Source: Halobellus rarus (GTDB taxonomy: Archaea; Halobacteriota; Halobacteria; Halobacteriales; Haloferacaceae). Taken from it: 64,000 bases of DNA. Numbering within the stretch: the stretch's first letter is position 1; each line of letters opens with the position of its first letter. The translations under genes were made by a program, and so were the position numbers. The stretch is from positions 1-64,000 of the forward strand of contig NZ_JANHDI010000012.1 of the NCBI RefSeq assembly GCF_024494595.1, written 5' to 3'. Shown here piece by piece: positions 6,741 through 33,432 of the stretch. The notes under the pieces are model-generated. The model was not told where the DNA came from and did not search any database. It was given only the letters and a program-made list of their open reading frames with translations.

Positions 6741-6815
6741 TGGGCGCTGCAGGATTTGAACCCGCGACAACTTGGTCCGAAGCCAAGCACTCTGTCCAAA
6801 CTGAGCTAAGCGCCC
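6741..6815 (-). tRNA. tRNA-Arg (anticodon TCG)
   Basis: The reverse complement folds as a cloverleaf: acceptor GGGCGCT pairs with AGCGCCC, the anticodon stem CTTGG/CCAAG closes the loop CTTCGGA (anticodon TCG), and the T arm is GCGGG-TTCAAAT-CCTGC. The discriminator is A and CCA is not encoded. No intron is seen. Its 3' end faces the element on the left, the usual orientation for integration into a tRNA gene by a tyrosine recombinase. Confidence 0.95.
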
Positions 6816-18329: not shown

Positions 18330-18427
18330 ACCTACCTTTTTCCAGCGGTGGGTTTCCTCGCGGCGCTACGCGCCGCTGCGGGAACCCACCGTGCAAAAAC
18401 CTAGAGGGAAAAAGGCCGCTCGCGGTG
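18330..18427 (+). repeat. Palindromic intergenic repeat, copy A
   Basis: Starts just after the trxB stop. It has a T5 run (18337-18341), then a long hairpin made of GGTGGGTTTCC ... GGAACCCACC around a GCGGCGCTACGCGCCGC core, then CAAAAACCTAGAGGG and GCCGCTCGC. The same elements occur in copy B (32575-32743, + orientation) and copy C (33342-33432, minus orientation). Copies A and C even share the chance translation NPPxKNLEGKRPLA. In A and C it follows a stop codon immediately and could end transcription. Confidence 0.7.
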
Positions 18428-18534
18428 AACACCGCGCTCCGCGCGGCGATGCTTGTGACACAGATTCGTTCTTCACTCCGGCCGCTCCATCCGCGAACGG
18501 AATCTCTTAGCCCCGGCGGCGACTTCTTTCGACT

Positions 18535-19959
18535 GTGTCACGGCTCCGCCGAATCGGATCGAAACTCGCCCGAGCCCTGGCCCGCGCGGGCGTCATCGAC
18601 GAGCGGCGACTCGACGCGACCGTCGAGTTGGCGTGGCCGCGGGTCGTCACCGGCTTCGCGATTATGTCGAAGCGGACAGTGGACCTCGCGCTCGTCGGTC
18701 TCGTCATCGGGCCGACGGCGGTCGCGGGGCTGACGCTCGCGAACGCCTTCTGGATGGTCGCGAAGTTCCTCGCGATCGGCCTCGCCGGGGGGACCGTCTC
18801 GCTCGTCTCCCAGAACTACGGCGGCGGCGACGTCGAACGCGCGGCGTCGGTCGTTCGACTGAGCGTCGTCCTCTCGATCCTGCTCGGAATTCCGATCGTC
18901 GCGTTCTTCGGTCTCGCGGCCGAGCCACTGGTCGGCCTCGTCGGCGACGACCCGACGAGCATCGGCCACGGCGCGACGTACCTCGCGGTCGTCGCGCCCG
19001 GCCTCGTCTTCGAGTTCCTGAACCTGATCGCCAGCCGAACGTACGCGGGCGTCGGCGACACGGTCACGCCGATGGCGGCCCGCGCGGGCGGTGCCGTGGC
19101 CAACATCGCGCTCTCGGCCACGTTCGTCCTCGGACTCGATATGGGCGTCGCCGGGGCGGCGCTGGGAACCGCGCTCGCGACGGCGCTCGTGACGGTCGCC
19201 TTCTCGTGGGGGATGACCGGTCGGAACTACGTTCGGGGGCGCGGCGCGAGTCCGGTCCCCCTCACGCTCGAACGACCGATATTCGACGCCGAACTGCTCC
19301 GGCAGATCGCGCGCGTCTCGACGCCGCTCGTGGCCCGGCGGGCCGCGCAGGGGCTGGTCGTCTTCCCCCTCCTGGCCATCGCGGCGACGTTCGGTCCGGT
19401 GGCCGTCGCGGCCATCGGGATCGGCCGACAGGTCCGCGCGCTGCTCGCGAGCTTCTCCTGGGGGTTCTCCATCGCGGCGTCGACGCTCGTGGGCCAGGAA
19501 CTCGGTGCGGGCGAGGAGACGGAGGCCGAAGCGTACGGCTGGGGCATCGTCCGACTCTCGGCGGTGGTGTACGTATTCGCTGCCGCCATTGTGGTCGTCT
19601 TCGCCGACCCCATCGCCGGCGTCTTCGTGACCGAGGCCGAGAACCGAGCCCTCTCGGCGCAGTTCGTTCGCGTCGCGGCCGTGAGCGTCGTGGCAATGGG
19701 GATCGACGGCTCGATCACGGGCGCGCTGCGGGGTGCGGGCGACACGCGGATTCCGTTCGTTTCGGCGCTCGCGGGGCTGTATCTCGTGGCCGTCCCCGTC
19801 GCGTGGCTCGGAACCGTCGTCCCGGTGCTCGGAATCACTGGCCTCCTGCTCGCGCTCCTCGCGGAGACGGCCGTCCCGATGGTGGTGAACTTCTGGCGGT
19901 TCCGCTCGAACCGCTGGAAGGCGATCAGCCGAGAGTACCGACCGACGGTGGGCGATTGA
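18535..19959 (+). CDS. MATE-family efflux transporter
   Basis: A 474-residue membrane protein with about 12 hydrophobic segments in two related halves, the MATE (NorM/DinF) layout. PTAVAGLTLANAFWMVAKFL, GGTVSLVSQNYGGGD and the second-half counterpart SIAASTLVGQELGAGEETEA are family landmarks (all in two 6-helix bundles). It should export cationic or metabolic compounds using a Na+ or H+ gradient; the substrate is unknown. It starts with GTG at 18535. It follows trxB and repeat A but probably has its own promoter. Confidence 0.88.
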   Translation: MSRLRRIGSKLARALARAGVIDERRLDATVELAWPRVVTGFAIMSKRTVDLALVGLVIGPTAVAGLTLANAFWMVAKFLAIGLAGGTVSLVSQNYGGGDVERAASVVRLSVVLSILLGIPIVAFFGLAAEPLVGLVGDDPTSIGHGATYLAVVAPGLVFEFLNLIASRTYAGVGDTVTPMAARAGGAVANIALSATFVLGLDMGVAGAALGTALATALVTVAFSWGMTGRNYVRGRGASPVPLTLERPIFDAELLRQIARVSTPLVARRAAQGLVVFPLLAIAATFGPVAVAAIGIGRQVRALLASFSWGFSIAASTLVGQELGAGEETEAEAYGWGIVRLSAVVYVFAAAIVVVFADPIAGVFVTEAENRALSAQFVRVAAVSVVAMGIDGSITGALRGAGDTRIPFVSALAGLYLVAVPVAWLGTVVPVLGITGLLLALLAETAVPMVVNFWRFRSNRWKAISREYRPTVGD

Positions 19960-20102
19960 CGGCGATCGCGTGAGTGACGTCGTGCGAACCGACGGTAGCG
20001 ACCGATACGGTCCCCCGGAGGAGGCGCCGCGTACCGGTGCACTTCAACGGGTTGAATATGTCGTCGCATCTTTGACAACGTATCACGCGGAGACGGAACT
20101 GT

Positions 20103-21710
20103 ATGCGCACCGTGCGTGCGAGTCTGAGACAGTTCGTGGACGAACTCGACTCCGTGGTGTTCGGCGTCGGGTTCTCGGTATCGCTGGTCGCCATCCTGGT
20201 CTTCTTCTCGAGCCCGGAGGCCTCGGCAAACAGGATGGGACAGATAAACGAGTACCTCTGGACCGAGTTTATGTGGGTCTACGTCGGGACGATGTTCCTG
20301 ATGGTGACGTTCAGCCTCTGGCTGATGTTCGGTCGCTGGGGCGACATCAAACTCGGCAAGCCCGACGACGATCCGGAGTTCAGCCTGCTGGCGTTCTTCT
20401 CGATGATGTTCTCGGCGGGCATCGCGGCCGGCATCGTGTTCTGGGGGCCGGCGGAGGCACTGGCGCACTACGAGACCGTCCCGCCGCTGATCGGCGCCGA
20501 GGCGGGGACGCCCGCGGCGGCGGTCGGTGCCATCCAGTACACGCTCTTTCACTGGGGTATCTCCTACTGGGTGCCGTACCTGATCGTCGCGCTGCCGATC
20601 GCCTACTACGCGTTCCGGAAAGACGCGCCGATGCGCGTCTCGACGCTCATCGCGCCGTTCGTCGGCGTCGACAATCTCGACGGCTTCTGGGCGAAGACCA
20701 TCGACGTGCTGGCGGTGTTCGCGACCATCGGCGGCATCGCGACGACGCTGGGCTTCGTCGGCAGGCAGTTCCTCACCGGCCTGGAGTACACCGCCGGCGT
20801 CTCACTCGGCGACGCCGGAACGGTGCTCGTGATCACCGGCCTGACGGTCGCCTTTACGGTCTCGGTGACGCTCGGGGTGAAGAAGGGTATCGCGCGCGTC
20901 TCGCTCTTCAATATGGCCGTCTTCGCCGGCCTGGCGGTCGCGACGTTCCTCCTCGGGCCGACGAACTACATTATGAACACCGGCCTCCAGGCTGTCGGGG
21001 GCTACTTCGGCGAGTTCCTCTCGATGAGCCTCTACACCAACGCCACCGGGACCGGTGAGTGGGTCGGTAACTGGACGGTCTTCTACTGGGCGTGGGTGTT
21101 CTCGTGGGCTCCCTTCGGCGGGCTGTTCGTCGCTCGCATCTCGAAAGGGCGGACGATCCGGCAGGTCGTCGCGACCGCCCTCATCGGCGCGACGGCCTCG
21201 ACGATCCCGTGGTTCCTCACGATGGGCGGCAGCGCCATCTTCTTCGAGCGCAACGACATCGCACCGATGCTGCAGATGGTCGACCAGTACGGCGTCTCCG
21301 TCTCCGGGTTCCCGCTGTTCGGAGCGCTTCCCTTCGGCGACGGCCTCGCGGCGGTGTTTATGCTTCTCGTGGTGACGTTCTTCGTCACGTCGGCGGACTC
21401 CTCGACGCTGGCGCTCGGGATGCTCACCACCGGCGGCAAGCAGCACCCCTCGACGATCAACCGGATCATCTGGGGCGGACTGATGGGCGGCCTCGCGTCG
21501 CTGCTCATCGTCGGCGGCGGCATCGACGCGCTCCGCTCCTCGGCCATCATCACCGGGTTCCCCTTCGCGCTCATCTCGGTCGTCGCCATCGCGGGGATGG
21601 TCTGGGAGTACCAGTCGGTCTCGCCGCTGCTCTCGTCGGACCCGGACGGGGCAGTCGGGGGGTCGAACGACTCGGTGGGAATGTCCTCACCGAGCACTGA
21701 CGACGACTGA
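20103..21710 (+). CDS. BCCT-family transporter (betaine/choline/carnitine type)
   Basis: A 535-residue protein with about 12 membrane spans. FSAGIAAGIVFWGPAEAL and HYETVPP match the BCCT core. The signature WTVFYWAWVFSWAPF and GLFVARISKGRTIRQ (about residues 325-355) carries the Trp box that binds the quaternary amine. TSADSSTLALGMLT is the conserved eighth-helix region. It most likely takes up glycine betaine or a similar compatible solute with Na+, useful for osmotic balance. The ATG at 20103 is preceded by an AT-rich region; no neighbour is clearly linked. Confidence 0.92.
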   Translation: MRTVRASLRQFVDELDSVVFGVGFSVSLVAILVFFSSPEASANRMGQINEYLWTEFMWVYVGTMFLMVTFSLWLMFGRWGDIKLGKPDDDPEFSLLAFFSMMFSAGIAAGIVFWGPAEALAHYETVPPLIGAEAGTPAAAVGAIQYTLFHWGISYWVPYLIVALPIAYYAFRKDAPMRVSTLIAPFVGVDNLDGFWAKTIDVLAVFATIGGIATTLGFVGRQFLTGLEYTAGVSLGDAGTVLVITGLTVAFTVSVTLGVKKGIARVSLFNMAVFAGLAVATFLLGPTNYIMNTGLQAVGGYFGEFLSMSLYTNATGTGEWVGNWTVFYWAWVFSWAPFGGLFVARISKGRTIRQVVATALIGATASTIPWFLTMGGSAIFFERNDIAPMLQMVDQYGVSVSGFPLFGALPFGDGLAAVFMLLVVTFFVTSADSSTLALGMLTTGGKQHPSTINRIIWGGLMGGLASLLIVGGGIDALRSSAIITGFPFALISVVAIAGMVWEYQSVSPLLSSDPDGAVGGSNDSVGMSSPSTDDD

Positions 21711-21803
21711 TTCGGCCCGTCGTAACCGTTAACCGACGATCGCGACGCCCCCGTCTCCGACCGCTTCCCACAGACCCTTATGTCGAGGCGCCCGAGAGGC
21801 GGT

Positions 21804-22088
21804 ATGGTCGAAACCGAGACCTACACGATCGAAGCGCCGAACGGAGACGTCGAGGAGATCGAACTACCCGAGGGCCTCGCCGACGTCTTCACCGACCAGG
21901 GCGAATCGCCGACGGCGGTCGTCGGCGACCTCCTCATCCAGTCGTTCGCCCAGCAGGCCCACGGCGTCGTCCACCACGGCCAGGGCGAGACGCCCGCGGA
22001 CCTGGAAGCGCTCAACGAGAAGATGGAGGAGCTCTTCGAGGATCGATTCGGCGTCTCGCTCTCGGAAGCGATGGGCCACAGTCACTGA
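21804..22088 (+). CDS. Small conserved haloarchaeal protein
   Basis: A 94-residue acidic protein. Its start ETYTIEAPNGDVEEIELPEG is a predicted strand pair. The middle (SPTAVVGDLLIQSFAQQAHGV) is helical, and the end contains a His cluster (GVVHHGQGE, MGHSH) that could bind a metal. It belongs to a type of small haloarchaeal protein I have seen annotated only as a DUF. It is convergent with the ZIP transporter gene (41 bases apart). No function is assigned. Confidence 0.7.
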   Translation: MVETETYTIEAPNGDVEEIELPEGLADVFTDQGESPTAVVGDLLIQSFAQQAHGVVHHGQGETPADLEALNEKMEELFEDRFGVSLSEAMGHSH

Positions 22089-22129
22089 GCGAGTCCCTCT
22101 CCTTACTTTCGGATTTCCGTCTCGACCGG

Positions 22130-22975
22130 TCAGAGGAACGCGAGCGGGATCATCGCGAACACGCCGGCGGCGATGCCGCCGAACAGTTCCCGACGACCGT
22201 TGCCGGGGAGTCCCCGGCCGATCTCTCTGGCCTCCGGAATGAACTCCGTGAGCACCAGATAGATCATCGCGCCGGCGGCGAAGCCGAACCCCGCCGGGAG
22301 GAACTCCCGTGCGATGCGGACGAAGTAGAACGCGATCACGGCACCGATGGGTTGCGGGAGGCTCGAGAACACCGACCACCAGACGAGCTTCCAGTTCGCG
22401 ACGCCCATCGACCGCAGCGGAATCGAGATGGCGACGCCCTCGGGGACGTTGTGGATCGAGATGGCGATCGTCATAAAGATCGCCAGCACGGGTACGACGA
22501 ACCCGAAGATCTGGGTGCCGCCTTCGATCCCCAGATCGGCGAACGAGACGCCGACGGCGACGCCCTCGGGGAACGAGTGGACGGTCAACACGCCGAGAAT
22601 CAACACTAGCTTCTTGAAATCCGCCTCGGCGTACTGCTTCGGGTCGACGTCGGCCCCCTCGATGAGGCCGTGGGCGACGAACACGAGGATGACGCCCGCG
22701 AGGAGCCCGGCCCCCAGCAGGAGCAGCTGCCGCTGAGGGATCGGGTCGACCGCGATCCCGTTCAGCGAGACCTGTACGTACGCGCCGAGCGCTTCCAACA
22801 CCAGTCCGAACACCGACGCCGAGAGCATAATGCCCGAGGCGATCCCCCACAGCGCGACGTTCCAACGGTCGCTCACGTCTGAGACGAAAAAGAAGGGGAC
22901 TGCACCCAGGCCGGTCGCCAGCGCGGTGATGAACCCCGCGACGAAGACGAACCCGAGAGACCAGAACTCGACCAT
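22130..22975 (-). CDS. ZIP-family metal transporter
   Basis: A 281-residue membrane protein with about 8 spans. The metal-site helices are intact: HSFPEGVAVGVSFADLG in helix IV and HNVPEGVAISIPL in helix V, the canonical HxxPEG pair of ZIP carriers. A third segment, GFAAGAMIYLVLTEFIPEA, is also typical. It imports a divalent metal such as Zn2+, Fe2+ or Mn2+. A TATA box lies at the right distance for a leaderless transcript, with a palindrome just behind it (23023-23039). Confidence 0.92.
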   Translation of the reverse strand: MVEFWSLGFVFVAGFITALATGLGAVPFFFVSDVSDRWNVALWGIASGIMLSASVFGLVLEALGAYVQVSLNGIAVDPIPQRQLLLLGAGLLAGVILVFVAHGLIEGADVDPKQYAEADFKKLVLILGVLTVHSFPEGVAVGVSFADLGIEGGTQIFGFVVPVLAIFMTIAISIHNVPEGVAISIPLRSMGVANWKLVWWSVFSSLPQPIGAVIAFYFVRIAREFLPAGFGFAAGAMIYLVLTEFIPEAREIGRGLPGNGRRELFGGIAAGVFAMIPLAFL

Positions 22976-23000
22976 ACCCTATCTAGACCGCGTACGACCA

Positions 23001-23039
23001 TAAATATTTCATATATCTTAACTTTTGGCAGGCCTAAAA
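23001..23039 (-). promoter_or_regulatory. Promoter and candidate metal-regulator site of the ZIP gene
   Basis: On the minus strand an AT-rich TATA-like element (reading AAATATTTA, 23002-23010) lies ~28 bases before the ATG at 22975. Right upstream, 23023-23039 is an imperfect inverted repeat (TTTTGGC..GCCTAAAA). DtxR/SirR-family metal regulators bind TTAGGC-type palindromes, so metal-responsive repression is plausible but inferred. Confidence 0.4.
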
Positions 23040-23256
23040 ATATGGCACCCAGCGGTTTGGTGGGACGACATAACGTGAAATAACCTAAGGTATATTACCA
23101 TTCCGCACACTGGCTGGATACGCCACGATCGGTGATGCACCGCTTCGCGGCCAGTACGCCGCCGCCACCGGTCCCGTTGGCACCTCGGTATGCGGAGAAA
23201 TGGGCTCTACAGTCGCCGGCGAAGCGTTCTTCGGGGTCGCGCTCGCAGACGTTCGT

Positions 23257-23721
23257 ATGCATCGGAGAGCCGCGGAGTTCGCGGACCAAGTAGCGGAGCG
23301 CTACGGCCTCGACCTGGCTGTCGAAGAGTTCCCGGAGGGGACGAAGACGGCGGCGGACGCCGCGGAGGCGGTCGGTTGCGAGGTCGGACAGATCGCCAGC
23401 AGCCTCGTCTTCGAGGCCGACGGCGACCTCGTCGTCGTCGTGACCAGCGGCGCGAACCGGGTAGATGAATCGCTGCTGGCCGACCACCTCGACGTCGAGG
23501 ACGTTTCGATGGCGAACCCCGAGCGGATCAGCGAGGTCGTCGGATGGAGCATCGGCGGCGTGCCACCCCTGTGTCACGAGACCGACGTTCCGGTGTGCAT
23601 CGACGAGTCGCTCCTCGACTACGAGCGGGTGTGGGCCGCCGCCGGGACGCCGACCGCCGTGTTTCCGATCGATCCGGACGAACTGCGGGGAATCGCGGGC
23701 GCGACGCCGATCGACGTGTGA
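23257..23721 (+). CDS. YbaK/ProX-family aminoacyl-tRNA deacylase-like protein
   Basis: A 154-residue single-domain protein of the YbaK/EbsC/ProX fold. GTKTAADAAEAVGCEVGQIASSLVF is the family's first motif (seen as TAADAAEAVGC and QIASSLVF), then GDLVVVVTSGANRVD, GWSIGGVPPLCH and PVCIDESLLDY. Such proteins hydrolyse mischarged tRNA. Here the usually invariant Lys of the (I/V)xKTLVF strand is Ser, so activity may be changed. The ATG at 23257 gives the family start MHRRAAEFAD; an earlier in-frame ATG at 23200 gives a non-homologous leader. Confidence 0.85.
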   Translation: MHRRAAEFADQVAERYGLDLAVEEFPEGTKTAADAAEAVGCEVGQIASSLVFEADGDLVVVVTSGANRVDESLLADHLDVEDVSMANPERISEVVGWSIGGVPPLCHETDVPVCIDESLLDYERVWAAAGTPTAVFPIDPDELRGIAGATPIDV

Positions 23722-23750
23722 GCGAGTAGCCGCGCCCCGTCGGCGATTCG

Positions 23751-24839
23751 CTATCCCACGATGTCGACGCCGGTGAACTCGAACCGCGCACCGCCGTCGT
23801 CGCCCTCGGTCACGGTAACGTCCCAGCCGTGTGCTTCCGCGATCCACTTGACGATCGCCAGCCCGTAGCCCGTTCCCGCCTCGGCCGTCGTGTAGCCGAG
23901 ATCGAACACCCGATCGCGTTCCTCCGGTGGAATCCCGGGGCCGTCGTCCGCGACGTAAAATCCGGTTTCGCTCCCGTCGATAGCGCCCACACGGACCGTT
24001 ACTCCGCCGCCGCTCGCGGAGCCGTGTTCCGCGGCGTCGTCGGACGCCCGACGGCTCGCGGAGCCGTGTTCCGCGGCGTTGCGGATCAGGTTCTCGAAGA
24101 GGTTTCGGAGCCGATCGGGATCGGCCTCGATCGTGAGGTCCGACTCGACCGCTAGGGACGCGTCGTCCGTCTCGACTGTCGCCCAGCACCGTTCGAGAAG
24201 CGTCGACAGCGTCACGTGCTCTTTCGTTCCGACGTCCTGCCCGTGTTTCGCCAGTGTCAGCGTGTCGTCGATGATCGTCCACATCCGTCCGAGCGCGTCT
24301 TCGGCCTCCGCGAGGTGGGCCGAGTCGCACTCCGCCGCAGCGAGTTGCACGTGTCCTTCGGCGACGTTCAGCGGGTTCCGGAGATCGTGGGCGACGACGC
24401 TCGCGAACTCCTCGAGCCGTTCGTTCTGCCGTTCGAGTTGCCGCTCGTAGGCTTTTCGCGTGCCGATCCGCCGGAGGGAAACGATCGCACCTTCCGTCTC
24501 ACCGTCGGTCCGGATGGGCGTAACCCGTGCCTCCGCAGGCAGACGTCGCGGGACGGGCGCAGTCTCAGGGTGAGACATCGACAGTTCGACTCGTTCTTCC
24601 GTCGATTCGCCAGACGACACCGTCTCGACGGCCGCCTCTAGCGCCTCGAACCCGTCCTCGACGACCCGGCCGAACACCGCGAAGTCGGATCCGATCACCG
24701 GCTCACTGGTGAGTTGTGAAATCTCGTAGAACCGCTCGTTCGCGAAGGCGACGGACCCGTCGGTGTTGACTGCCACCACCGGCTCCATCTGGTTTCTGGA
24801 GACGGTTTCGACGTCGATCCCTCCGTCACCGCGTGTCAT
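23751..24839 (-). CDS. PAS-domain sensor histidine kinase
   Basis: A 362-residue soluble kinase. A PAS domain (about 10-125) starts at QMEPVVAVNTDGSVAFANER and a short linker follows. The dimerisation/phospho-acceptor helix FASVVAHDLRNPLNVAEGH holds the His. The ATPase domain has the N box NLIRNAAEHG, G1 DDGPGIPPEE, F box and G2 GTGYGLAIVKWIAEAHG. No membrane segment is seen, so it senses a cytoplasmic signal. No response regulator gene is adjacent. A 42-base in-frame duplication lengthens the loop after the N box (AAEHGSASRRASDD/AAEHGSASGGG). The ATG at 24839 was chosen; the frame is open upstream. Confidence 0.9.
   Translation of the reverse strand: MTRGDGGIDVETVSRNQMEPVVAVNTDGSVAFANERFYEISQLTSEPVIGSDFAVFGRVVEDGFEALEAAVETVSSGESTEERVELSMSHPETAPVPRRLPAEARVTPIRTDGETEGAIVSLRRIGTRKAYERQLERQNERLEEFASVVAHDLRNPLNVAEGHVQLAAAECDSAHLAEAEDALGRMWTIIDDTLTLAKHGQDVGTKEHVTLSTLLERCWATVETDDASLAVESDLTIEADPDRLRNLFENLIRNAAEHGSASRRASDDAAEHGSASGGGVTVRVGAIDGSETGFYVADDGPGIPPEERDRVFDLGYTTAEAGTGYGLAIVKWIAEAHGWDVTVTEGDDGGARFEFTGVDIVG
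24012..24079. repeat. In-frame partial tandem duplication inside the histidine kinase gene
   Basis: A perfect 26-base unit occurs at 24012-24037 and 24054-24079, a 42-base period. It encodes AAEHGSAS twice, adding 14 residues right after the ATP-binding N box. Confidence 0.85.
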
Positions 24840-24940
24840 AGGTCGAGTACAGCAGAGACGATGTAAAATGTACCTACTCGCTCGGGATGTCCTGGCTTCC
24901 GTGATCGGATTTTTGCCTCTCGAACGCGTATGTCCAATCA

Positions 24941-25258
24941 ATGCAAGACTCCTCCGATGCAGCCGACGACGACGTCGGCCGTTCCGAAGACGGACGCGAC
25001 CGCGTCTGGCTCGTCGAGCGGACGTACTCCGACGACGAGCAGAACATCGTGATCTTGGTGTACGCGACGCTCGATGGCACACGGTACCTCCGGAAGGAGC
25101 GGGCGCTCACGAGTTTCGACGACGTGCGCGACACCACGGCCGCGATCCGAGCGCGCGAATCGAGTTTGGGCCGAGTCGCCGATCCGGACGAAAGGGAACG
25201 GTACGCCAGCGAGGCGAAGCGAACGAAACAGCAGTACGGTCCCGACGAAGTGATCTGA
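24941..25258 (+). CDS. Small conserved haloarchaeal protein
   Basis: A 105-residue acidic protein. The core is RVWLVERTYSDDEQNIVILVYATLDG (RVWLVERTYSD and NIVILVYATLDG are predicted strands), then TRYLRKERALTSF and a helical Glu/Arg tail. It is divergent from the histidine kinase gene with 101 bases between, which hold both promoters (TTTTTGCC-rich stretch near 24910). No family is recognised with confidence. A link to the kinase is possible from position only. Confidence 0.7.
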   Translation: MQDSSDAADDDVGRSEDGRDRVWLVERTYSDDEQNIVILVYATLDGTRYLRKERALTSFDDVRDTTAAIRARESSLGRVADPDERERYASEAKRTKQQYGPDEVI

Positions 25259-25298
25259 CGGGCCCTCTTCGAAGCGACCCCGAGGACGACCCGACGAC

Positions 25299-25336
25299 GT
25301 ACTCGAAACCGAGTACCGAATACTCGAATTTAAGAA
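25299..25336 (+). promoter_or_regulatory. TrmB-type operator and TATA box of the acetyl-CoA synthetase gene
   Basis: GTACTCG-AAAC-CGAGTAC (25299-25316) is a perfect inverted repeat and contains TACT-N7-GAGTA exactly (25300-25315), the motif reported for the sugar-responsive regulator TrmB in Halobacterium. TACTCGAA recurs at 25321-25328. A TATA element (AATTTAAGA, from 25327) lies ~30 bases before the ATG at 25360. The site is just upstream of the TATA, the position linked to activation by TrmB. Confidence 0.6.
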
Positions 25337-25359
25337 TCAGCACGGAGTAGGTCCGAACG

Positions 25360-27468
25360 ATGGGAGAGCTATCTCCGTTGTTCGCGCCCGAACGCATCGC
25401 CGTCGTGGGCGCTACGGACCGCGAGGGGTCGGTCGGCAGAGCGATTATGGAGAACCTCCTCGACGCGTTCGTGGGCGAGGTCGTCCCCGTGAACCCGGGG
25501 CGAGAGGAGGTCTTCGGACTGCCGGCGCTCGACAGCGTCGCCGACTCGGAGGCCGACCTCGCGGTGGTGGTCGTCCCCCCGGCGGTCGCCGTCGACGTCG
25601 TTCGCGAGGCCGGCGAGGCCGGCATCACGAACGTGGTGGTCATCACCGCCGGGTTCGGCGAGACGGGCACCGAGGGTGCCACCCGGGAACAGGAGCTGAC
25701 GGCGGTCGCCGAGGCGTACGACATCGACCTGGTCGGCCCGAACAGCCTGGGTATCATGTCCACCCCCGTCGGAATGAACGCCTCGTTCGGACCCGAGAAC
25801 GCCACCTCGGGGCGGATGTCGTTCATGAGCCAGTCGGGCGCGTTCATCACGGCCGTGCTGGACTGGGCGAACGACCAGGGTATCGGATTCAAGGACATCG
25901 TCTCGCTCGGGAACAAGGCCGTCCTCGACGAGTCCGACTTCGTTCGGGAGTGGGGTGACGACGACGAGACGGACGTCGTGATCGGATACCTCGAAGGCAT
26001 CGACGACGGCCAGACGTTCATCCAGACCGCCAGGGAAGTCACTCGGGAGACGCCGATCGTCCTCGTCAAGTCCGGCCGCACCGACGCCGGGGCGCAGGCC
26101 GCCTCCAGTCACACGGGGACGATCGCCGGCTCGGATCAAGCCTACGAGGCGGGTCTCGAACAGGCCGGGGTCATCCGCGCCGACTCCGTTCAGGAACTGT
26201 TCGACGCCGCGCGCGTCCTGGAGCGTCAACCCCTCCCCGAGACAGACGCCGTCGCGGTCATCACCAACGCCGGCGGACCGGGCGTGATGAGTACCGACTC
26301 CATCGGCGACTCGCGGCTCTCGATGGCCTCCTTCACCGACGAGACCCTCGAAGCGTTCTCCGAGACGTTGCCCGCGGAGGGGAACATCTATAACCCGGTC
26401 GACGTCGTCGGCGACGCGGACAACGAGCGGTTCCGCGACGCCCTGGACGTCGCCCTCGGCGACGAGAACGTCGGCAGCGCGATGGTGCTTGCCTGTCCCA
26501 CCGCCGTCCTCGATTACGGGGAGTTAGCCGAAGACACGGTGGCGATGCAGGCGAAGCACGGCAAGCCGGTCGCCGCCTGCTTTATGGGCGGGGCGCGGGT
26601 CGAGCCCGCCGCGGAGACGCTCTCGGAGGCCGGCATCCCGAACTACTTCGACCCCGCGCGGGCGGTCGCGGGCCTCGACGCGCTCTCGCGGTTCCGCGAC
26701 ATCAGCGAGCGCGAGTATCAGGAACCGACGACGTTCGACGTCGACCGCGAGCGCGCCCGGGAGATCCTCTCCTCGGTCGAAGGGCGGACGGACACGCGCC
26801 TCGGCGTCGAGGCGATGGGCCTCCTGGACGCCTACGGGATCCCGACGCCCGACGGCGACATCGTCGACGCGCCGGCCGACGCCCTGGCGGTCGCAGAGCG
26901 GATCGACGGCGACGTCGTGATGAAGATCGTCAGCCCAGACATCCTCCACAAGTCCGACATCGGCGGCGTCAAGGTCGGCGTCGCCGACGAAGACGTCGAA
27001 GACGCCTACGAGGACCTCGTTTCCCGCGCCCGCAACTACCAGCCCGACGCGACGATCATCGGCGTTCAGGTGCAGGAGATGGTCGACCTCGACAGCGGCG
27101 TCGAAACCATCGTCGGGATGAACCGCGACCCGCAGTTCGGGCCGCTCCTGCTCTTCGGTCTCGGCGGCATCTTCGTCGAGACGCTCGAAGACACGACGTT
27201 CCGCGTCGCGCCCGTCTCCGAGGCCGAGGCCGAGGCGATGACCCGCGAGATCGACGCCGCGCCCCTCCTGCGGGGCGCTCGCGGGCGCGAACCCGCCGAC
27301 GTCGAGGGCGTCGTCGAGACGATCCAGCGCCTCTCACAGCTCGTGACCGACTTCCCGGCCATCCTGGAACTGGACATCAACCCGCTCGTCGCCACGCCGG
27401 ACGGCGTCGAAGCCGTCGACGTACGGCTCACCGTCGACCCCGACGAACTATCGAGAGTCCACCAATGA
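25360..27468 (+). CDS. acd: ADP-forming acetate-CoA ligase (fused alpha-beta)
   Basis: A 702-residue single-chain acyl-CoA synthetase (ADP-forming), as in haloarchaea. The alpha part (1-460) has a CoA-binding Rossmann domain (IAVVGATDREGSVGRAIM) and ligase domains with the phosphorylated His in SSHTGTIAGSDQAYE (His251). The beta part (about 480-702) is an ATP-grasp domain with GLLDAYGIPTPDGD, MKIVSPDILHKSDIGGV and LLLFGLGGIFVE. It converts acetyl-CoA, ADP and phosphate to acetate, CoA and ATP, making ATP during growth on sugars or amino acids. The next gene overlaps by 4 bases. A TrmB-type site precedes it. Confidence 0.94.
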   Translation: MGELSPLFAPERIAVVGATDREGSVGRAIMENLLDAFVGEVVPVNPGREEVFGLPALDSVADSEADLAVVVVPPAVAVDVVREAGEAGITNVVVITAGFGETGTEGATREQELTAVAEAYDIDLVGPNSLGIMSTPVGMNASFGPENATSGRMSFMSQSGAFITAVLDWANDQGIGFKDIVSLGNKAVLDESDFVREWGDDDETDVVIGYLEGIDDGQTFIQTAREVTRETPIVLVKSGRTDAGAQAASSHTGTIAGSDQAYEAGLEQAGVIRADSVQELFDAARVLERQPLPETDAVAVITNAGGPGVMSTDSIGDSRLSMASFTDETLEAFSETLPAEGNIYNPVDVVGDADNERFRDALDVALGDENVGSAMVLACPTAVLDYGELAEDTVAMQAKHGKPVAACFMGGARVEPAAETLSEAGIPNYFDPARAVAGLDALSRFRDISEREYQEPTTFDVDRERAREILSSVEGRTDTRLGVEAMGLLDAYGIPTPDGDIVDAPADALAVAERIDGDVVMKIVSPDILHKSDIGGVKVGVADEDVEDAYEDLVSRARNYQPDATIIGVQVQEMVDLDSGVETIVGMNRDPQFGPLLLFGLGGIFVETLEDTTFRVAPVSEAEAEAMTREIDAAPLLRGARGREPADVEGVVETIQRLSQLVTDFPAILELDINPLVATPDGVEAVDVRLTVDPDELSRVHQ

Positions 27469-28646
27469 ACACGAACACCCTACTCGTCACCTCGATCACG
27501 GAAAGCACCGGCAAAACCGCAGTCACGCTCGCGCTCGGCGGCCTCGCGCAGGAGCGCGGCCTCACCGTTGGCTACATGAAGCCCAAGGGGACGCGGCTCC
27601 AGTCGAACGTCGGCAAGACGCTCGACGAGGATCCGATGCTCGCGCGCGAACTCCTGGGGCTGGACAGCGAGATGCACCAGATGGAACCGATCGTCTACTC
27701 GCCGACGTTCGTCGACGGCGCGATCCGCGGCCAGGAGGACCCCGAAGAACTCGGCGGGATCGTCGAGGAGCACTTCGCGGACCTCGCGGCCGAGACGGAC
27801 CTGATGCTCGTCGAGGGCGGCGGCTCTTGGACGGTCGGCGGTATCGTCGACCTGACGGACGTCGACGTCGCCGACCGTCTCGACGCGAACGTCCTGCTCG
27901 TGGCCGGCTACGAACAGTCGAGCGACCTCGACGACGTCGTCGCGGCCGCCGAGGCGTTCGGCGACCGGCTCGCGGGCGTGTTGTTCAACGGCGTGACCGA
28001 CGCCGCCTTCGACGACCTCGAACAGGAGGCGGTGCCGTTCCTCGAAAGCCGCGGCGTACCCGTCCTCGGCGTCGTCCCCCGCGAACGGGAACTCGCCGGC
28101 GTCCGCGTCAACGACCTCGCCGAGGAACTGGGTGCCAAGGTCGTCACCGAGGGCGACTCCGACGCCTACGTCGAACGGTTCCTCGTGGGCGCAATGGGCG
28201 GCGACGCGGCGTTGCGGTACTTCCGCCGGACGAAGAACGCCGCGGTAATCACCGGTGGGGACCGTTCCGAGATCATCGCGGCCGCGCTCGAAGCGCCGGG
28301 CGTCAACGCCATCATCCTGACCGGCGGTCACCGCCCGACGTCGGCGGTGCTCGGCAAGGCCGAACAACGGGGCGTGCCCGTGCTCTCGGTCACCGGCGAC
28401 ACGCTCTCGGTCGTCGACCGCGCGGAGGCCGTCGTCAACACCGGGCGGGCCCGCGACGAGGAGACCATCGCGCGGATGCGCGAACTGCTCCACGACCACG
28501 CGGACGTCGACGCGATTCTCGGTGTTGAGACGGCCGCACCGGGTGACGATGTGTCCGATACGGAGGTCGGGTCCGCCACGGGAGACGACGCCGGTGCGGA
28601 CCCTGACGCGGATTCAGACCCCGGCGCCGATGGCGACGCGGAGTGA
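27465..28646 (+). CDS. Phosphotransacetylase-family protein (BioD-like P-loop plus DRTGG domain)
   Basis: A 393-residue protein overlapping the acd gene by ATGA. The N-terminal ~200 residues are a BioD-like P-loop domain (TSITESTGKTAVTLALGG; ExGGSW at VEGGGSWTVGG). The DRTGG domain follows (about 230-345) with MGGDAALRYFRRTKNAAVITG, GGHRPTSAVLGKAEQRGVPVL (as ILTGGHRPTSAVL). This matches the N-terminal half of bacterial Pta but lacks the catalytic PTA_PTB domain, so it cannot itself make acetyl phosphate. Coupling to the acetyl-CoA synthetase suggests a regulatory or accessory role. The C-terminal ~40 residues are a disordered Asp/Gly tail. Confidence 0.88.
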   Translation: MNTNTLLVTSITESTGKTAVTLALGGLAQERGLTVGYMKPKGTRLQSNVGKTLDEDPMLARELLGLDSEMHQMEPIVYSPTFVDGAIRGQEDPEELGGIVEEHFADLAAETDLMLVEGGGSWTVGGIVDLTDVDVADRLDANVLLVAGYEQSSDLDDVVAAAEAFGDRLAGVLFNGVTDAAFDDLEQEAVPFLESRGVPVLGVVPRERELAGVRVNDLAEELGAKVVTEGDSDAYVERFLVGAMGGDAALRYFRRTKNAAVITGGDRSEIIAAALEAPGVNAIILTGGHRPTSAVLGKAEQRGVPVLSVTGDTLSVVDRAEAVVNTGRARDEETIARMRELLHDHADVDAILGVETAAPGDDVSDTEVGSATGDDAGADPDADSDPGADGDAE

Positions 28647-28883
28647 TAGTCACCGCCGGGGCGAGCCATCGTCGAATCGTAGCCGATTCCGATCCCGGTT
28701 CCGAGTCTCCACCGGTTCGATCCACGTGGACGTACAGTCAGATGAGCGGTGGTGGCAGCCACTACTGCACGGTCCACGCACCCGCGCGATTGGACATATC
28801 TGACCTATAGACACCGACATAAGTGGTCCCTTCTCGGGCCGTAATCAGCGATTAATTATTACTACGCCCTCCCGTGGGGACGT

Positions 28884-29060
28884 ATGGACTTCGACTGGCC
28901 GACATACTTCGAGTGCGCGGCGTGCGGGGCCGAATTCCCGGCGAACAAGGTCCAATACGACGACTTGGGCTATCCGGAATGCCCCGACTGCGAGGCGCGA
29001 ACCGGTCCGCTCGCCAGTCTGGAGGCCGTCGACGCGGTCGAGCACGGAATCGCCGAATAA
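28884..29060 (+). CDS. Small double-CxxC zinc-ribbon protein
   Basis: A 58-residue protein beginning MDFDWPTYFECAACGAEF. Two zinc knuckles (CAAC and CPDC about 22 residues apart) make a rubredoxin/zinc-ribbon-like site. It ends in a short acidic helix. A TATA-like GATTAATTATT (28850-28860) lies ~29 bases before the ATG, so a leaderless transcript is likely. Such single zinc-ribbon proteins are abundant in haloarchaea and mostly uncharacterised. It is convergent with the halocyanin-like gene (6 bases apart). Confidence 0.78.
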   Translation: MDFDWPTYFECAACGAEFPANKVQYDDLGYPECPDCEARTGPLASLEAVDAVEHGIAE

Positions 29061-29066
29061 CGGTCA

Positions 29067-29675
29067 TCACTCGTCGTCGTCCATCATCTCGTAATCGCCA
29101 CCGTATTTCAAGAAGAAGTACGCGAGCGAGACGACGGCGACGAACGCACCCGTCACCGTCACGAGGAGGGTCTTTGCGGCGTCGGGGACGGTTGGAGCCG
29201 GCTGTCCGCCCGGGTCCGTCTCCGCTCCGCCCGGCGTGACGTCGACGCTCCCGAGCATCCCCACGCTCTCGTGCGGGATACAGAAGTACTCGTACGTCCC
29301 TTCGACCTCGAAGGTGTGCTGGTACGTTTCGCCCTCTGGGACGTCGCCGCTGTCGGGGTCGCCGGCCGAGTAGGCACCGCGTGCGTCCGCCTCGTTGTCG
29401 AACCCGCCCGACGCGAAGTACGCGGCCTCGTCTGGGATCTCATCTTCGTAGGCAGTGACTGAGTGACCGACGGTCCCCACGGTCTCCCAGACGACGGTGT
29501 CGCCGGGCGCGATCGTTATCGAATCCGGGTCGAAGACCAAGTCGTCGGTCATATCGATCCTGTGGGTCGTTCCCTCCTGCGCAGTTGCCGTTCCGGCCGC
29601 ACCTCCGGCCGCGCCGACCCCGACTGCGGCCTGAAGGAGTCTGCGCCGCGAGAGTCGCATCGACGGTCGAGCCAT
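29067..29675 (-). CDS. Halocyanin/plastocyanin-like copper protein
   Basis: A 202-residue secreted blue-copper protein. The twin-arginine signal SRRRLLQAAVGVG (residues ~9-21) predicts Tat export. The cupredoxin fold has the copper ligands His (GTVGHSVTAYE) and the Cys-x2-His-x4-Met cluster (YFCIPHESVGM). A C-terminal span (LLVTVTGAFVAVVSLAYFF) with a short acidic cytoplasmic tail anchors it in the membrane, unlike the lipobox-anchored halocyanins. It probably carries electrons on the outer membrane face. The ATG at 29675 was chosen so that the twin-arginine motif sits near the N-terminus. Confidence 0.9.
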   Translation of the reverse strand: MARPSMRLSRRRLLQAAVGVGAAGGAAGTATAQEGTTHRIDMTDDLVFDPDSITIAPGDTVVWETVGTVGHSVTAYEDEIPDEAAYFASGGFDNEADARGAYSAGDPDSGDVPEGETYQHTFEVEGTYEYFCIPHESVGMLGSVDVTPGGAETDPGGQPAPTVPDAAKTLLVTVTGAFVAVVSLAYFFLKYGGDYEMMDDDE

Positions 29676-29841
29676 AGGGTAGAGACGCGGTGTCACGAAT
29701 TAGTAAGTCGGATATTTCTCGCTTCTCGGGATCTAATTGGTCAATACCTGTCATATTCTCGGACTCCGCCCAGCAGACACGTACCAGAAGCCCGAGGCGT
29801 GTAGTCGGAAGATACAGGCCGACTCCGCGCGAGCGATCGGT

Positions 29842-30090
29842 ATGGAGTGGACGCGGAACCGGAGAGACGACGAGGACCTCGTCGAGTGGACGCGCGCGGA
29901 CGGGTACGTGACCATCCGGCGACGACGCCGGGCCGACGGCGGGTGGGTCGTCAGACTCGACCGACTGTATCAGGCACCGGAGGGAAGCGGCTACCGACGA
30001 GAACGCGCCGACGACGTCGAGTCCGCCGGGGGCTTGGTCGAAGCCTGGAAGAGCGAGAACGGGGGGGCCGAAGAACAGTCGTCTACCTGA
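29842..30090 (+). CDS. Small conserved haloarchaeal protein
   Basis: An 82-residue protein, unusually rich in Arg and Trp. MEWTRNRRDDEDLVEWTRADG then YVTIRRRRRADGGWVVRLDR suggests a three-stranded sheet, with LVEAWKSENGG as a terminal helix. It is probably one of the small haloarchaeal DUF families (DUF7543 from memory). No function is known. It is convergent with the CBS-ParB gene. Confidence 0.65.
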   Translation: MEWTRNRRDDEDLVEWTRADGYVTIRRRRRADGGWVVRLDRLYQAPEGSGYRRERADDVESAGGLVEAWKSENGGAEEQSST

Positions 30091-30149
30091 CTACGTTGCT
30101 CCCGAGGCGGGACGTCCGAGGCAGCGACAGTGGCGCGTCGTCGCCGTCG

Positions 30150-30935
30150 TCACTCCTGAAGCCGGTGCGTCGTCTCGATGAGCGGGTGCCGGCCGTAGTC
30201 GGCGATCTCGATGTCTTCGAGCGAGGAGAGCCCCTCCTTGTCGGCCGTCCGCTGCATCCCCAACTCGATCGGCTCGTCGAGGACGATCACGGAGGCGTCC
30301 ATCTCCTCGATCCCGAGTTGGTGGGCGGCCATCACGCGGTGGTGGCCGTCGGCCAGAAGCAAGTCGCCGCCGTTGTCGATGACGACGAGCGGTTCGGCGA
30401 GTCCGCGCTCGAGTTCGTACTGCCGTCCTTCGAGTTCGTCGGCGTACACGCGGCCCTGCGTCGGGGTGAGGTCATCGAGTTCGACGACTCTCGGCTCCTG
30501 GCGCAGCGTGATGCCGTGGATCTGTTCGAGCGTGCGCATCAGTTTCCCCACTTTTTCGGGCGTCGCGCGCTCGATCTGCGAGCGGACGACGTCCGTGTTC
30601 GAGATGATACCGACGAGGTTGTCCGCGTCGTCGACGACCGGGAGCTTCTGGATCCCCGAACGGAGGATCACGCGCGCGGCGTCGATCACGTCCATCTCGG
30701 GGTGTGCGACGATGATGTCTTCGGTCATCACGGTGAAGATCGGGACCTCGTCGTCGACCAAGAGCAGATCGCTAGCAGTGACGAACCCCTCGACCTTCCG
30801 ACTCTCCGCCACCGGGAATCCGTTGTGGCCCTCGCTCTCTTTGATCCGCCGCGCGACGTCTGCGACGGTATCGGTCGGCGCGACGGTTTGCACCTCGCGC
30901 GTCATGTACTCCTTGACCTTCGGTCGCCCACTCAT
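30150..30935 (-). CDS. CBS-domain protein with C-terminal ParB/Srx-like domain
   Basis: A 261-residue protein. Two CBS motifs form one Bateman module (about 8-130): VKEYMTREVQTVAPTDTVADV and IFTVMTEDIIVAHPEMDVIDA with VVDDADNLVGIISNTDV. The C-terminal half (150-245) has a ParB/sulfiredoxin-like fold: ELDDLTPTQGRV, PLVVIDNGGDLLLADGHHRVMAAHQLG, where DGHHR is the family motif. CBS modules sense adenylates; the ParB-like part may bind nucleotide or DNA. The combination suggests an energy-sensing regulator. The ATG at 30935 was chosen because it begins the first CBS unit. Confidence 0.85.
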   Translation of the reverse strand: MSGRPKVKEYMTREVQTVAPTDTVADVARRIKESEGHNGFPVAESRKVEGFVTASDLLLVDDEVPIFTVMTEDIIVAHPEMDVIDAARVILRSGIQKLPVVDDADNLVGIISNTDVVRSQIERATPEKVGKLMRTLEQIHGITLRQEPRVVELDDLTPTQGRVYADELEGRQYELERGLAEPLVVIDNGGDLLLADGHHRVMAAHQLGIEEMDASVIVLDEPIELGMQRTADKEGLSSLEDIEIADYGRHPLIETTHRLQE

Positions 30936-31049
30936 TGTCGTGGGTACGCGGGCGGGCCGCAAAAACGTGCGCCCTCGTCGTCGAGCACGTGCGCCTCAAT
31001 TGCCGATGACGTGCTCATCGGCACCCGGACGATCCCCCGCCACCGACAG

Positions 31050-32525
31050 TCACTCCTCGAAGGAGTCGAAGGGCGACTCGAACACCCAATCGGGCCCTTC
31101 CGATCCGACGTCGAGAAGCGTCGTCGCATCTTCGAGCGTCTCGAAGATCCGCCCGGCGATGACGTCGGTGACGATCGCGGACAGTTCCGCCGCGGATTCC
31201 TCTCCGGTGTCTCCCAAGATTCCCAGCGGGACCTGCGCGCCGGCCATATCGGCGTGGCCGCCCGCGCTGCCGATCGCTCCGAGTGCGTCCCGGAGAGATT
31301 CGCCGAGGTCGACGTCCGTCCCGCGAGCCCGTCCGGAGACGTAGACCGTGCCGTCTTTGAACCCGTAGACGATCGCGATGCGGATGCCCTCCATATTCAG
31401 TAGCCGGTCGGCGGCCTGCGCGAGCGAGTCGCGGTCGGAGATGGGTCCGACGTTCGACGCGAGCGCGTCGCCGCGGACGTCGCGGTCGCGTATCGCCCGC
31501 GCCAGCGTCTCCAGCACCGCCGAGGTCATACTCGGCGATTCGACTCGGTCGAGGGCCGAGAGGTCGGCGTGCGTGAGCAGCCACGCCGCGGCCTCGAAGT
31601 CCGTCGCCGAAACCTCCCTGGTGAAGTCGTTCGTGTCGATCCGGATCCCGAAGAGCAGCGCCGTCGCCAGCGACTCCTCGGGCTCGATGCTAGCCCGACG
31701 GAGGTACTCCGCCAGGAGCGTACTGGTCGCGCCGACGTCGCGTCTGAGGTCGACGAAGTGCGCCTCCACGGGTGCCCGGGGCGGGTGGTGATCGACGACG
31801 ATGTCGATCTGGGTGTCCTCTGGAAGGCCGTCGTTGACACCGGGGCGCGAGTGGTCGACGAGTGCGATGCCGTCGTAGGCGTCGAGGTCCGTCTCGGCGT
31901 CGAGTTCGATCAGATCCAGATCCAACAGGTTCACCAGCGCCCGGTTCTCCTGATGGGAGATGTCCCCGAAGTAGCAGGGATCGGCCGAGACGCCGACGGC
32001 GGCGGCCAACTGCGAGAGCGCGAGCGCGCTCGCGATCGCGTCGGGGTCCGGATTGTCGTGCATCACTACGGCCAACCGACCGTCGATGCGGCGGAGCGCG
32101 GTGAACAGTCGTTGCAGACGGTTCGCACCGAGCCCGATCGTCAGATCGCGGATCCGACCCCCGAGCACGCGTTCGGCGTCGACCACGCGATTCGCGAGGC
32201 GTTCGACCGTCGCCCGCGTCTCCTCGGTCGCACCGACGCCGAGGTACACGATCAGGTTCGCGTCGGGGTACTGCGCCCGGGCCCGGGCAGCGGCGTCGAC
32301 GTTCGTCTCGGCGTCGTCGGCCGCGACGAACACCAGATCCGCGCTCGGTGGATACGCGGTCGGGTCGTCGGGAGGCCCCCGTTCGATCGTGACGCCGCCG
32401 ACTCCGGTCCGGAAGTCGTCGTCGTCGCACTCTCCGATGACCGTCAGTTCTCCGGGCCACTCGGAGATACGCTCTACGGTCTCGCGTGCGACCGACCCGC
32501 ACCCGAGGACCAGCCGCCGTTGCAT
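31050..32525 (-). CDS. RCK-N domain plus DHH/DHHA1 phosphoesterase
   Basis: A 491-residue fusion. Residues 1-115 are a TrkA-N/RCK-type Rossmann domain (LVLGCGSVARETVERI). Residues ~145-300 are a DHH phosphoesterase: VVMHDNPDPDAIASALAL, the DHS of ALVDHSRPGVND, and the DHH of IDIVVDHHPPRAP. A DHHA1 domain follows with GSAGGHADMAGAQVP. DHH-DHHA1 enzymes cleave cyclic dinucleotides or short RNA. RCK fusion suggests a nucleotide-sensing c-di-AMP phosphodiesterase or nanoRNase; that is inference. The ATG at 32525 is taken because it begins the Rossmann motif. Confidence 0.88.
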   Translation of the reverse strand: MQRRLVLGCGSVARETVERISEWPGELTVIGECDDDDFRTGVGGVTIERGPPDDPTAYPPSADLVFVAADDAETNVDAAARARAQYPDANLIVYLGVGATEETRATVERLANRVVDAERVLGGRIRDLTIGLGANRLQRLFTALRRIDGRLAVVMHDNPDPDAIASALALSQLAAAVGVSADPCYFGDISHQENRALVNLLDLDLIELDAETDLDAYDGIALVDHSRPGVNDGLPEDTQIDIVVDHHPPRAPVEAHFVDLRRDVGATSTLLAEYLRRASIEPEESLATALLFGIRIDTNDFTREVSATDFEAAAWLLTHADLSALDRVESPSMTSAVLETLARAIRDRDVRGDALASNVGPISDRDSLAQAADRLLNMEGIRIAIVYGFKDGTVYVSGRARGTDVDLGESLRDALGAIGSAGGHADMAGAQVPLGILGDTGEESAAELSAIVTDVIAGRIFETLEDATTLLDVGSEGPDWVFESPFDSFEE

Positions 32526-32951
32526 ACCATCCTCTCGGCTCGCCGGTGGCAAAAACATCCACCTTTTCGCCGTCCACCTTTTTGACGCGGTGAGTTTCCT
32601 CGCTCGCTGCACTCGCTGCGGGAACCCACCGCGCAAAAACCGGTCTTGCTGAGCGTAGCAAAGCAAGGCTCGTGAGACGCGACGCGTCTCACGGCGGAGG
32701 GGAAAATACCGCTCGCCCGGCCTTCGGCCTCGCTCGCGGTGGGATACAAAAGAGTACAAGAGTTGGAGGACCGTCCAGCGGCGTTGGTTTCACTGTCGTC
32801 TACGGCGAATTAACCAGGGAGTAGACCGTGCAAACTGATATCCACTACTCTTGGAGTCGTTACAGGCCTCCTGCCAGTAGACTGAGCGGCTTTCAGTCTT
32901 GCTTGCAGTGGCAACGCGATGATCTATTGCAATGGAACGAACATTAACTGT
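32526..32951. other. Intergenic region with repeat copy B and promoter-like DNA
   Basis: No convincing gene. 32575-32743 is repeat copy B. After it the DNA is AT-richer and less like its neighbours, holding the presumed promoter of the small membrane gene at 32952. A short CACCTTTT-type doublet (32570 and 32575) abuts the repeat. Confidence 0.5.
32575..32743 (+). repeat. Palindromic intergenic repeat, copy B (expanded)
   Basis: It has the same parts as copy A: CACCTTTTTGACGCGGTG, GTTTCCTCGC...GCTGCGGGAACCCACCG, CAAAAACC, then GGGGAAAATACCGCTCGC. Between CAAAAACC and the last part about 57 extra bases form two further palindromes, one of them a 10-bp stem with a single-base loop (GTGAGACGCG/CGCGTCTCAC, 32672-32692). 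It lies upstream of a minus-strand gene and not after a stop codon. Confidence 0.65.
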
Positions 32952-33128
32952 ATGGCGTATCAAACAACCCTTGGCTGGTCACTTCTCACCTCAGGAATTG
33001 TCACCCTGCTTCTCTACGTGCTTCCCGGTGATTCACTCTGGTGGGGAATCGGCCTGTTGATCGCGGGACTTGTCGTCCTCTACATTCGGCGTGATGACGT
33101 TTCCGGCGCATTAGATGTGCTATCCTGA
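32952..33128 (+). CDS. Small membrane protein
   Basis: A 58-residue protein with two hydrophobic segments (about 8-25, GWSLLTSGIVTLLLYVLP, and 30-47, LWWGIGLLIAGLVVLYI) and a short charged tail (RRDDVSGALDVLS). An in-frame ATG at 32919 would add 11 residues (MIYCNGTNINC) that do not look native. No family is recognised. The surrounding DNA is lower in GC than the window average, so it may be a recent arrival or a dispensable gene. Confidence 0.55.
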   Translation: MAYQTTLGWSLLTSGIVTLLLYVLPGDSLWWGIGLLIAGLVVLYIRRDDVSGALDVLS

Positions 33129-33432
33129 CGTACGTGGAAACGAGGTCCGTTCATAGCTCAGTAGTCGGATCTGTTGCGTCGGACTGAGTTGCTGAAAGGC
33201 ATTCTCTATATTCAGCAAGTCCTTTCTGACGTCTCGTCGAGAGGTGGGTGGTCGCACCGGTAACGCTTTCATCTGTCTGCGTTCCGCGATCCGGGCGAGA
33301 CCGCCGATTTCACTGGAAGCCGGCGGCTCCGCGCCGGCGACGGAGCGAGCGGTCTTTTTCCCTCTAGGTTTTTGTACGGGGGTTCCCGCAGCGAACGCAG
33401 TGAGCGAGGAAACCACCGCGTCAAAAAGGTGA
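33129..33432. other. Intergenic region after the nuo operon with repeat copy C
   Basis: No gene is supported. 33129-33341 shows no clear signal. 33342-33432 is repeat copy C, ending directly at the nuoN stop. A minus-strand open frame across this stretch consists partly of repeat sequence and is not credible. Confidence 0.5.
33342..33432 (-). repeat. Palindromic intergenic repeat, copy C
   Basis: Read on the minus strand it begins right after the nuoN TAA: CACCTTTTTGACGCGGTGG, TTTCCTCGCTCACTGCG with its complement, GGGAACCCCCG, CAAAAACCTAGAGGGAAAAA, ACCGCTCGC. It matches copy A in order and orientation relative to the upstream gene, so it may terminate the nuo transcript. Confidence 0.68.

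Follow-up and report, generated by a model that had tools for sequence, protein, structure and literature searches.

The 64,000-nucleotide stretch of the Halobellus rarus genome analysed here (the window; haloarchaeal, 66% GC) carries three copies, A, B and C, of a small intergenic element that is probably a mobile, exchangeable and non-autonomous cassette whose role at transcription-unit borders is that of a bidirectional terminator or insulator. This reading is built on direct observations of the element's anatomy and placement, of covariation between its hairpin arms, of repeats of host gene ends beside it, and of filled and empty sites.

Copy A follows a plus-strand thioredoxin reductase gene (17257–18327; TIGR01292, 331 bits, just under the cut-off of 343) whose TAA stop lies at 18325–18327. 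It opens with ACCTACC and a T5 tract (18330–18341, the T5 itself at 18337–18341), a motif found class-wide, and continues with hairpin 1 (GCGGTGGGTTTCC...GGGAACCCACCGTGC; 18345–18393), an A5-CCTAGAGGG-A5 tail (18395–18413) that the minus strand reads as T5-N8/9-T5, and the region of hairpin 2 (GGCCGCTCGCGG...; 18414–18450). Copy C lies on the minus strand directly after the stop codon (33433–33435) of nuoN (33433–34947, minus strand; TIGR01770), with its CACCT5 end at 33423–33430, hairpin 1 at 33374–33422, the A5-CCTAGAGGG-A5 tail at 33355–33373 and hairpin 2 at 33316–33354. An earlier note on this DNA had remarked that both copies begin close behind a stop codon in the orientation of the gene, which holds. 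It had also described copy B as not following a gene end; this copy is not unplaced, since its CCACC end with the T5 tract (32574–32583, plus strand) stands 49 nt from the start codon (32525) of a minus-strand DHH-type phosphoesterase-like gene (31050–32525; best NCBIfam match NF003877, 56 bits, below cut-off), whose promoter side it faces. Hairpin 1 (32586–32634), an A5 tail interrupted by a ~60-nt palindrome (32635–32706) and hairpin 2 (32709–32739) follow.

The ordered blocks said to be common to A, B and C were found again in part: the places, the T5 tract, an imperfect hairpin (GG-GGG-TTTCC...GGGAACCC) and CAAAAACC recur in the same order, but copy B has no contiguous CCTAGAGGG, the palindrome of ~60 nt standing between CAAAAACC and GGAGGGGAAAA, and in copy C one arm is shortened (GGTGGTTTCC) and GACCGCTCGC stands in place of GCCGCTCGC, the first half of the second hairpin. 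The similarity among the three is far beyond chance. B and C match at 89.6% over 67 nt, and copy A, used as a 106-nt query, recovered 13 sites of its own genome with E<1e-5, 2 of them the halves of one long copy. The palindromic module of copy B (CTTGCTGAGCG...GCGTCTCACGGCGGA) was also seen, as a nested insertion of a palindrome, within the A5 tail at L008, L067, L071 and L078; L242, from a different haloarchaeal lineage, has a related module. Copy B is missing from the corresponding place in the genomes G010 and G008. The gap between nuoN and the DHH-type gene (32526–33432), with copies C and B at its two ends and turned towards each other, measures ~900 nt here versus 105–124 nt in G014 and G015, and a possible small plus-strand membrane ORF lies inside it near 32930–33128. 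At gathering score, Rfam recognised only a minus-strand tRNA gene in the window (6741–6815) and nothing in 20 of the loci, and the region of B and C gave no match at E<=1. A strict GGGAACCC pattern matched 0 stretches over the genome contigs.

The element is not confined to three copies, as first counted, since its own genome holds at least 19, gathered by the BLAST query together with the tail motif AAAAAYCTRGASSRAAAA (14 matches; 0 for the reversed control). Fifteen of the 19 start 0–9 nt after the stop of a gene and in its orientation, in keeping with the proposed transcription-end module; one lies 3 nt after a tRNA-Gly gene, and the other three, which include copy B, precede a start codon by 33, 41 and 49 nt and turn their T5 end towards it. 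For the copy at C11:420914 the gene caller missed the host; since KDEPY-stop is read there as in the orthologues, this copy was counted among the stop-adjacent ones. Thioredoxin reductase, NuoN, transcription factor S (TFS), RadA, DnaJ, the large subunit of DNA polymerase II, acetate-CoA ligase, aspartate-semialdehyde dehydrogenase, threonine-tRNA ligase and a branched-chain transaminase are among the host genes, and the genes with an upstream copy include those for pelota and adenosylhomocysteinase.

Counts of orientation and distance in relatives likewise showed that copies are not randomly placed. All 58 copies of the genus set fell into three contexts, 48 after stops, 4 after tRNA 3' ends and 6 upstream of starts, while random non-genic 60-mers fell into the same contexts at 6.2%, 0.1% and 6.7% (~13% together). 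Class-wide (n=142), copies behind a stop were antisense in 52 cases and sense in 24, 5 copies followed tRNAs, those upstream of a start turned the T5 to it in 26 cases and the A5 in 2, and 33 lay elsewhere, the last category taking up 69% of the random 60-mers. Of the 28 class-wide copies before a start, 26 thus have the T5 end on the start side, mostly at a distance of 34–53 nt, and in all but one of 69 stop-adjacent copies the distance from the stop to ACCT is 2–16 nt. Genes in these counts were called by an uncurated codon-usage script, and the element sets come from strict regular expressions applied to the listed loci, so that the numbers are lower bounds. Adjoining stop codons strongly avoid TGA (sense 4/69, antisense 10/48, baseline 770/1,390 or 55%), and the same tRNA-Gly gene has an element behind it in the own genome, in G010 and in G003 (L097, L070, L099), with a different hairpin in G003.

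In general form, the element consists of CCACCTTTTT, a hairpin whose sequence is free, AAAAA-YCTRGASS-RAAAA and a second hairpin. Read from the T5 end, this becomes CCACCTTTTT, hairpin 1, either AAAAA-CCTRGAGGG-AAAAA or AAAAA-TCTGGACC-AAAAA, usually GCCGC, and hairpin 2, and the opposite strand reads hairpin 2, T5-N8-T5, hairpin 1 and A5GGTGG, so that T5 tracts are present on both strands. Two positions outside the main pattern are also conserved, the two bases before ACCTTTTT being C in 194/200 and 159/200 copies, and GCCGC stands directly after the A-run in 72/189 copies versus 2/196 at a control offset. An initial view of a single family with a GGTGGG hairpin was dropped, because orthologues of DnaJ, TFS and NuoN keep the T5/A5-N8-A5 frame with the hairpin replaced; it is this frame that the class shares, and the family is therefore wider than the GGTGGG hairpin.

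Within the GGTGGG family, the suggestion that the arms stay complementary under selection on structure was borne out, with 5 of 17 pairs changing on both sides and still pairing. In a set of 33 sequences, all chosen by a regular expression that requires the blocks of the family, we counted 28 covariation cells, where shuffling gave 6.6 on average and none of 500 shuffles reached the observed value; the signal was lost when the pairings were slid. Interiors are otherwise highly diverse, with 189 distinct sequences among 198 copies and 84 clusters at 75% identity; compared with shuffles they fold with a median z-score of -3.0, only 129/198 copies lying below -2. RNA folding energy was better for the T5-N8-T5 (antisense) strand in 167/198 copies, whatever the orientation of the host, a comparison to which loop composition contributes and for which the Vienna energies are rough. 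Plain termination does not predict such a preference irrespective of host orientation, and the idea that the transcribed strand sets the hairpin strand was rejected, the antisense strand folding better in every context.

The exact frame pattern was present in 149 of 391 Halobacteria genomes and in 50 of 86 genera (reversed pattern, 0), with Haloferax, Halorubrum, Halococcus, Natrinema and Haloarcula among the listed matches and with class-wide loci numbering at least those listed. The GGTGGG family gave a significant match in 22 of 60 relatives, in a patchy manner, and no match to copy A was found in phages and plasmids. Presence behind DnaJ, NuoN and TFS is patchy even within the genus (30 loci per gene, read by eye), and where the element is present the hairpin can differ wholly while the T5 and the A5-N8-A5 tail are kept. 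In 46 copies, assigned manually to their genomes, median hairpin identity was 0.74 at orthologous sites, 0.75 between unrelated copies and 0.716 between paralogous copies within a genome. Concerted evolution within genomes is not supported by these values (p=0.47 for within-genome versus orthologous copies and 0.80 for within-genome versus unrelated copies). The pattern fits a wholesale exchange of hairpins between orthologous sites, and would also fit independent origins.

Many copies behind minus-strand genes, at named and class-wide loci, are flanked by direct repeats of the 3' end of the host gene, which often include the stop codon and the bases between it and the element. Among the 194 of 200 copies that entered the count (those too near the end of a locus were dropped), such repeats accompany 34/50 antisense copies, 10/31 copies in other positions, 2/2 upstream copies on the A5 side and 1/31 upstream copies on the T5 side; no gene-end repeat was found for 71 sense copies or 9 tRNA copies. 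The 34 antisense repeats are 37–162 nt long, start 1–11 nt from the CCACCT5 end and are often near identical, repeat identity having a median of 95.7%. Against a threshold defined as the maximum among mismatched left/right pairings from other loci, 43 of 157 copies scored above the best control. Where an element lay within 500 nt, 18/88 gene ends had a repeat, against 1/563 control gene ends without an element, this single case being itself an element missed by the pattern. As sense copies, including A and C, have no gene-end repeat, their origin may differ.

Direct comparison of filled and empty sites was possible in other genera. Among 30 GatB loci read in genus g38, L343 has a gene that ends EELN-TGA, followed by a cassette and then by a second gene end, EELES-TGA, which runs into the native downstream sequence of element-free relatives (178/213 versus L346, 182/213 versus L345). 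The 97-nt insert is without counterpart in these relatives (best local score 14). The same pattern with other cassettes was seen in L351 versus L350 (189/215) and in L352 versus L364 (167/189), the GatB inserts measuring 97–133 nt with local scores of <=14 against natives. GatB in L340 is followed by two stacked cassettes, and in L347 an L343-type end without a cassette is joined at a short GAACG match, a probable scar of cassette loss. In Haloferax, to which G147 was assigned (its G238 matches the Haloferax elongans query at 100% identity), a gene read from its sequence as malic enzyme-type gave the same picture against the empty site L392 (L389 189/201, L391 193/203, L387 180/200), as did a paralogue (L402 versus the empty L403, 178/195); here the inserts are 84 nt long and ~43 nt of the gene end are repeated. 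L381 and L382 versus L386 are less clean (54/67 and 36/49), and the native L386 has T5-GTCC-like remnants. For a gene of genus g71 (L332) the repeat occurs in L406 only, and the downstream sequences of the relatives are too diverged for comparison. The case for mobility is made by five filled/empty comparisons of sequence (three for GatB, two for the malic enzyme-type genes) in two genera. Together with the patchy occurrence in relatives, these sites uphold the description of the element as mobile or amplified, and the Halobellus copies presumably arose by the same insertion route. Tandem arrays of gene end and cassette, with a spacing of ~100–150 nt, were noticed at L388, L242, L278 and G169 (three copies).

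The case for termination combines sequence and position with one published motif test, in which a reporter carrying T5C showed 95% termination in Haloferax volcanii (PMC7237163). The structure search of that study covered the 100 nt upstream of 3' ends and would have missed a hairpin lying behind the T tract. In gene-sense orientation, the T5 precedes hairpin 1, which is thus not a stem of the bacterial type, and the form of a bacterial intrinsic terminator, with a hairpin right before the T tract, is absent; it occurs only in antisense orientation, where many copies have hairpin 2 before T5-N8-T5. The cassette probably terminates transcription from both sides. As to the notion of a transcription-end module, the stop-adjacent copies agree with it, while B is no exception to it but belongs to a second, promoter-edge class.

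We propose that a cassette of ~80–130 nt, made of CCACC-T5, hairpin 1, A5-N8-A5 and hairpin 2, would end a gene in sense orientation on the T5 tract a few nucleotides after the stop; for a gene in the opposite orientation, the end would fall on T5-N8-T5, with hairpin 2 before it. A cassette located just before a core promoter would halt transcription that reads through towards it. The cassette would spread by insertion, through an insertion enzyme or a repair route that we infer, and in several haloarchaeal genera this insertion would repeat the last ~40–160 nt of the host gene, so that the host gene still ends intact, with the cassette behind it, and its original end persists further downstream as a fossil. 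A broader reading, to which we give somewhat less than an even chance, is that mobile terminators of this kind operate throughout the class, that the long and variable 3'-end duplications re-encode the C-terminus and replace the terminator, and that the better-folding antisense strand and the A5-tract core mark a recognised single-stranded intermediate of RNA or DNA.

Ordinary terminators might instead expand in place by tandem duplication, through replication slippage at their hairpins and with no mobile element involved, and arrays of gene end and element do exist (three matches 146–147 nt apart in G169, further cases in G167, G083 and G218, two units in L388, and L242). However, the relatives in the filled/empty pairs have no such terminator, the inserted 84–133 nt are without counterpart, and the same frame stands behind many unrelated genes; already weakened by the filled/empty pairs, this explanation is distinctly unlikely. 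Horizontal import of a foreign gene end with its terminator, by homologous recombination on one side and an illegitimate join on the other with the native end left behind, would explain both the variable length of the repeats and the altered C-terminus of GatB in L343 (EELN versus the native EELES). It remains an unlikely account, as the junction always falls at the same end of the element, in 34 of 34 antisense repeats, and the repeats are often near identical. A derivative of REP or MITE type, moved by an IS200/IS605-like or other transposase, would be in keeping with the imperfect hairpins, the patchy copies and the two Y1_Tnp genes of the genome, but neither Y1_Tnp locus has a T5 or A5-N8-A5 frame motif, which leaves an IS200 origin unsupported. 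Moreover, terminal inverted repeats are missing, and the direct repeats of 37–162 nt do not resemble short duplications of a target site, so that we regard such a derivative as very unlikely.

Two further explanations concern function. The conserved 8–9 nt between the A5 tracts and the tight spacing of 34–53 nt before starts suggest sequence-specific recognition, as would be expected if the element were a boundary at the level of DNA (a protein-bound insulator, a roadblock or a chromatin mark) with merely incidental T5 tracts. The T5 placed directly after stop codons and tRNA ends speaks against this, as does the T5C motif being a proven haloarchaeal terminator (PMC7237163), and we give such a boundary only a minor chance. 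An mRNA 3'-UTR hairpin that stabilises transcripts would suit the strong, covarying hairpin, but sense copies carry it after the T5, hence outside an mRNA terminated there, and copies also lie before promoters; this is the explanation we find hardest to credit. The mobile terminator cassette is the reading that we retain.

If the broader, class-wide reading holds, a mobile element in the role of a regulatory part would drive the turnover of gene ends in haloarchaea. Little is known about the origin and evolution of archaeal terminators, which here have the appearance of movable parts. Their frame can be recognised, their hairpins are freely exchanged and fossils of gene ends mark insertion, which would make the origin of a terminator datable by comparative genomics. 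The element also yields ready predictions for existing 3'-end maps of H. volcanii; its hairpins, all set in one frame, form a natural library, and it suggests a recombination activity that duplicates 40–160 nt beside a stop. A literature search, which included the letters of the core, found no description of the element; an earlier one is possible, subscription papers and preprints being outside its scope.

Among known systems, the T5C terminators of H. volcanii (PMC7237163) are alike in having T5 after genes, with C as the next base in many copies. As far as the accessible part of PMC7237163 describes them, they differ in being a short motif, without a downstream hairpin frame, an N8 core, mobility or gene-end repeats. 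With REP, BIME and REPIN sequences and their RAYTs the element has in common that it is a short, intergenic, non-autonomous palindrome, often near gene ends. REPs are short palindromes of high copy number with GTAG/CGTC tags. The present element instead has a T5/A5-N8-A5 frame, ~19 copies, a placement fixed to stops and, in other genera, long gene-end repeats; no copies were found beside a RAYT/Y1 gene, the two Y1_Tnp loci being without the frame motif, and inspection of the alignment showed no evident GTAG/CGTC tag at the foot of the palindrome. MITEs resemble it as small non-autonomous insertions with flanking direct repeats, but by base counts its ends (CCACCT5 versus GCCGC/hairpin 2) are not inverted repeats, and the repeats of the antisense set are variable instead of a short target duplication of fixed length. 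The double-hairpin elements of fungal mitochondria are mobile and consist of double GC-rich hairpins, and in this they are alike, although the organisms differ; we know of no terminator frame in them. The element belongs to a known kind, the small non-autonomous intergenic elements, and differs from REPs and MITEs in the features compared; what is new with respect to these two is a likely terminator function and the long repeats of gene ends.
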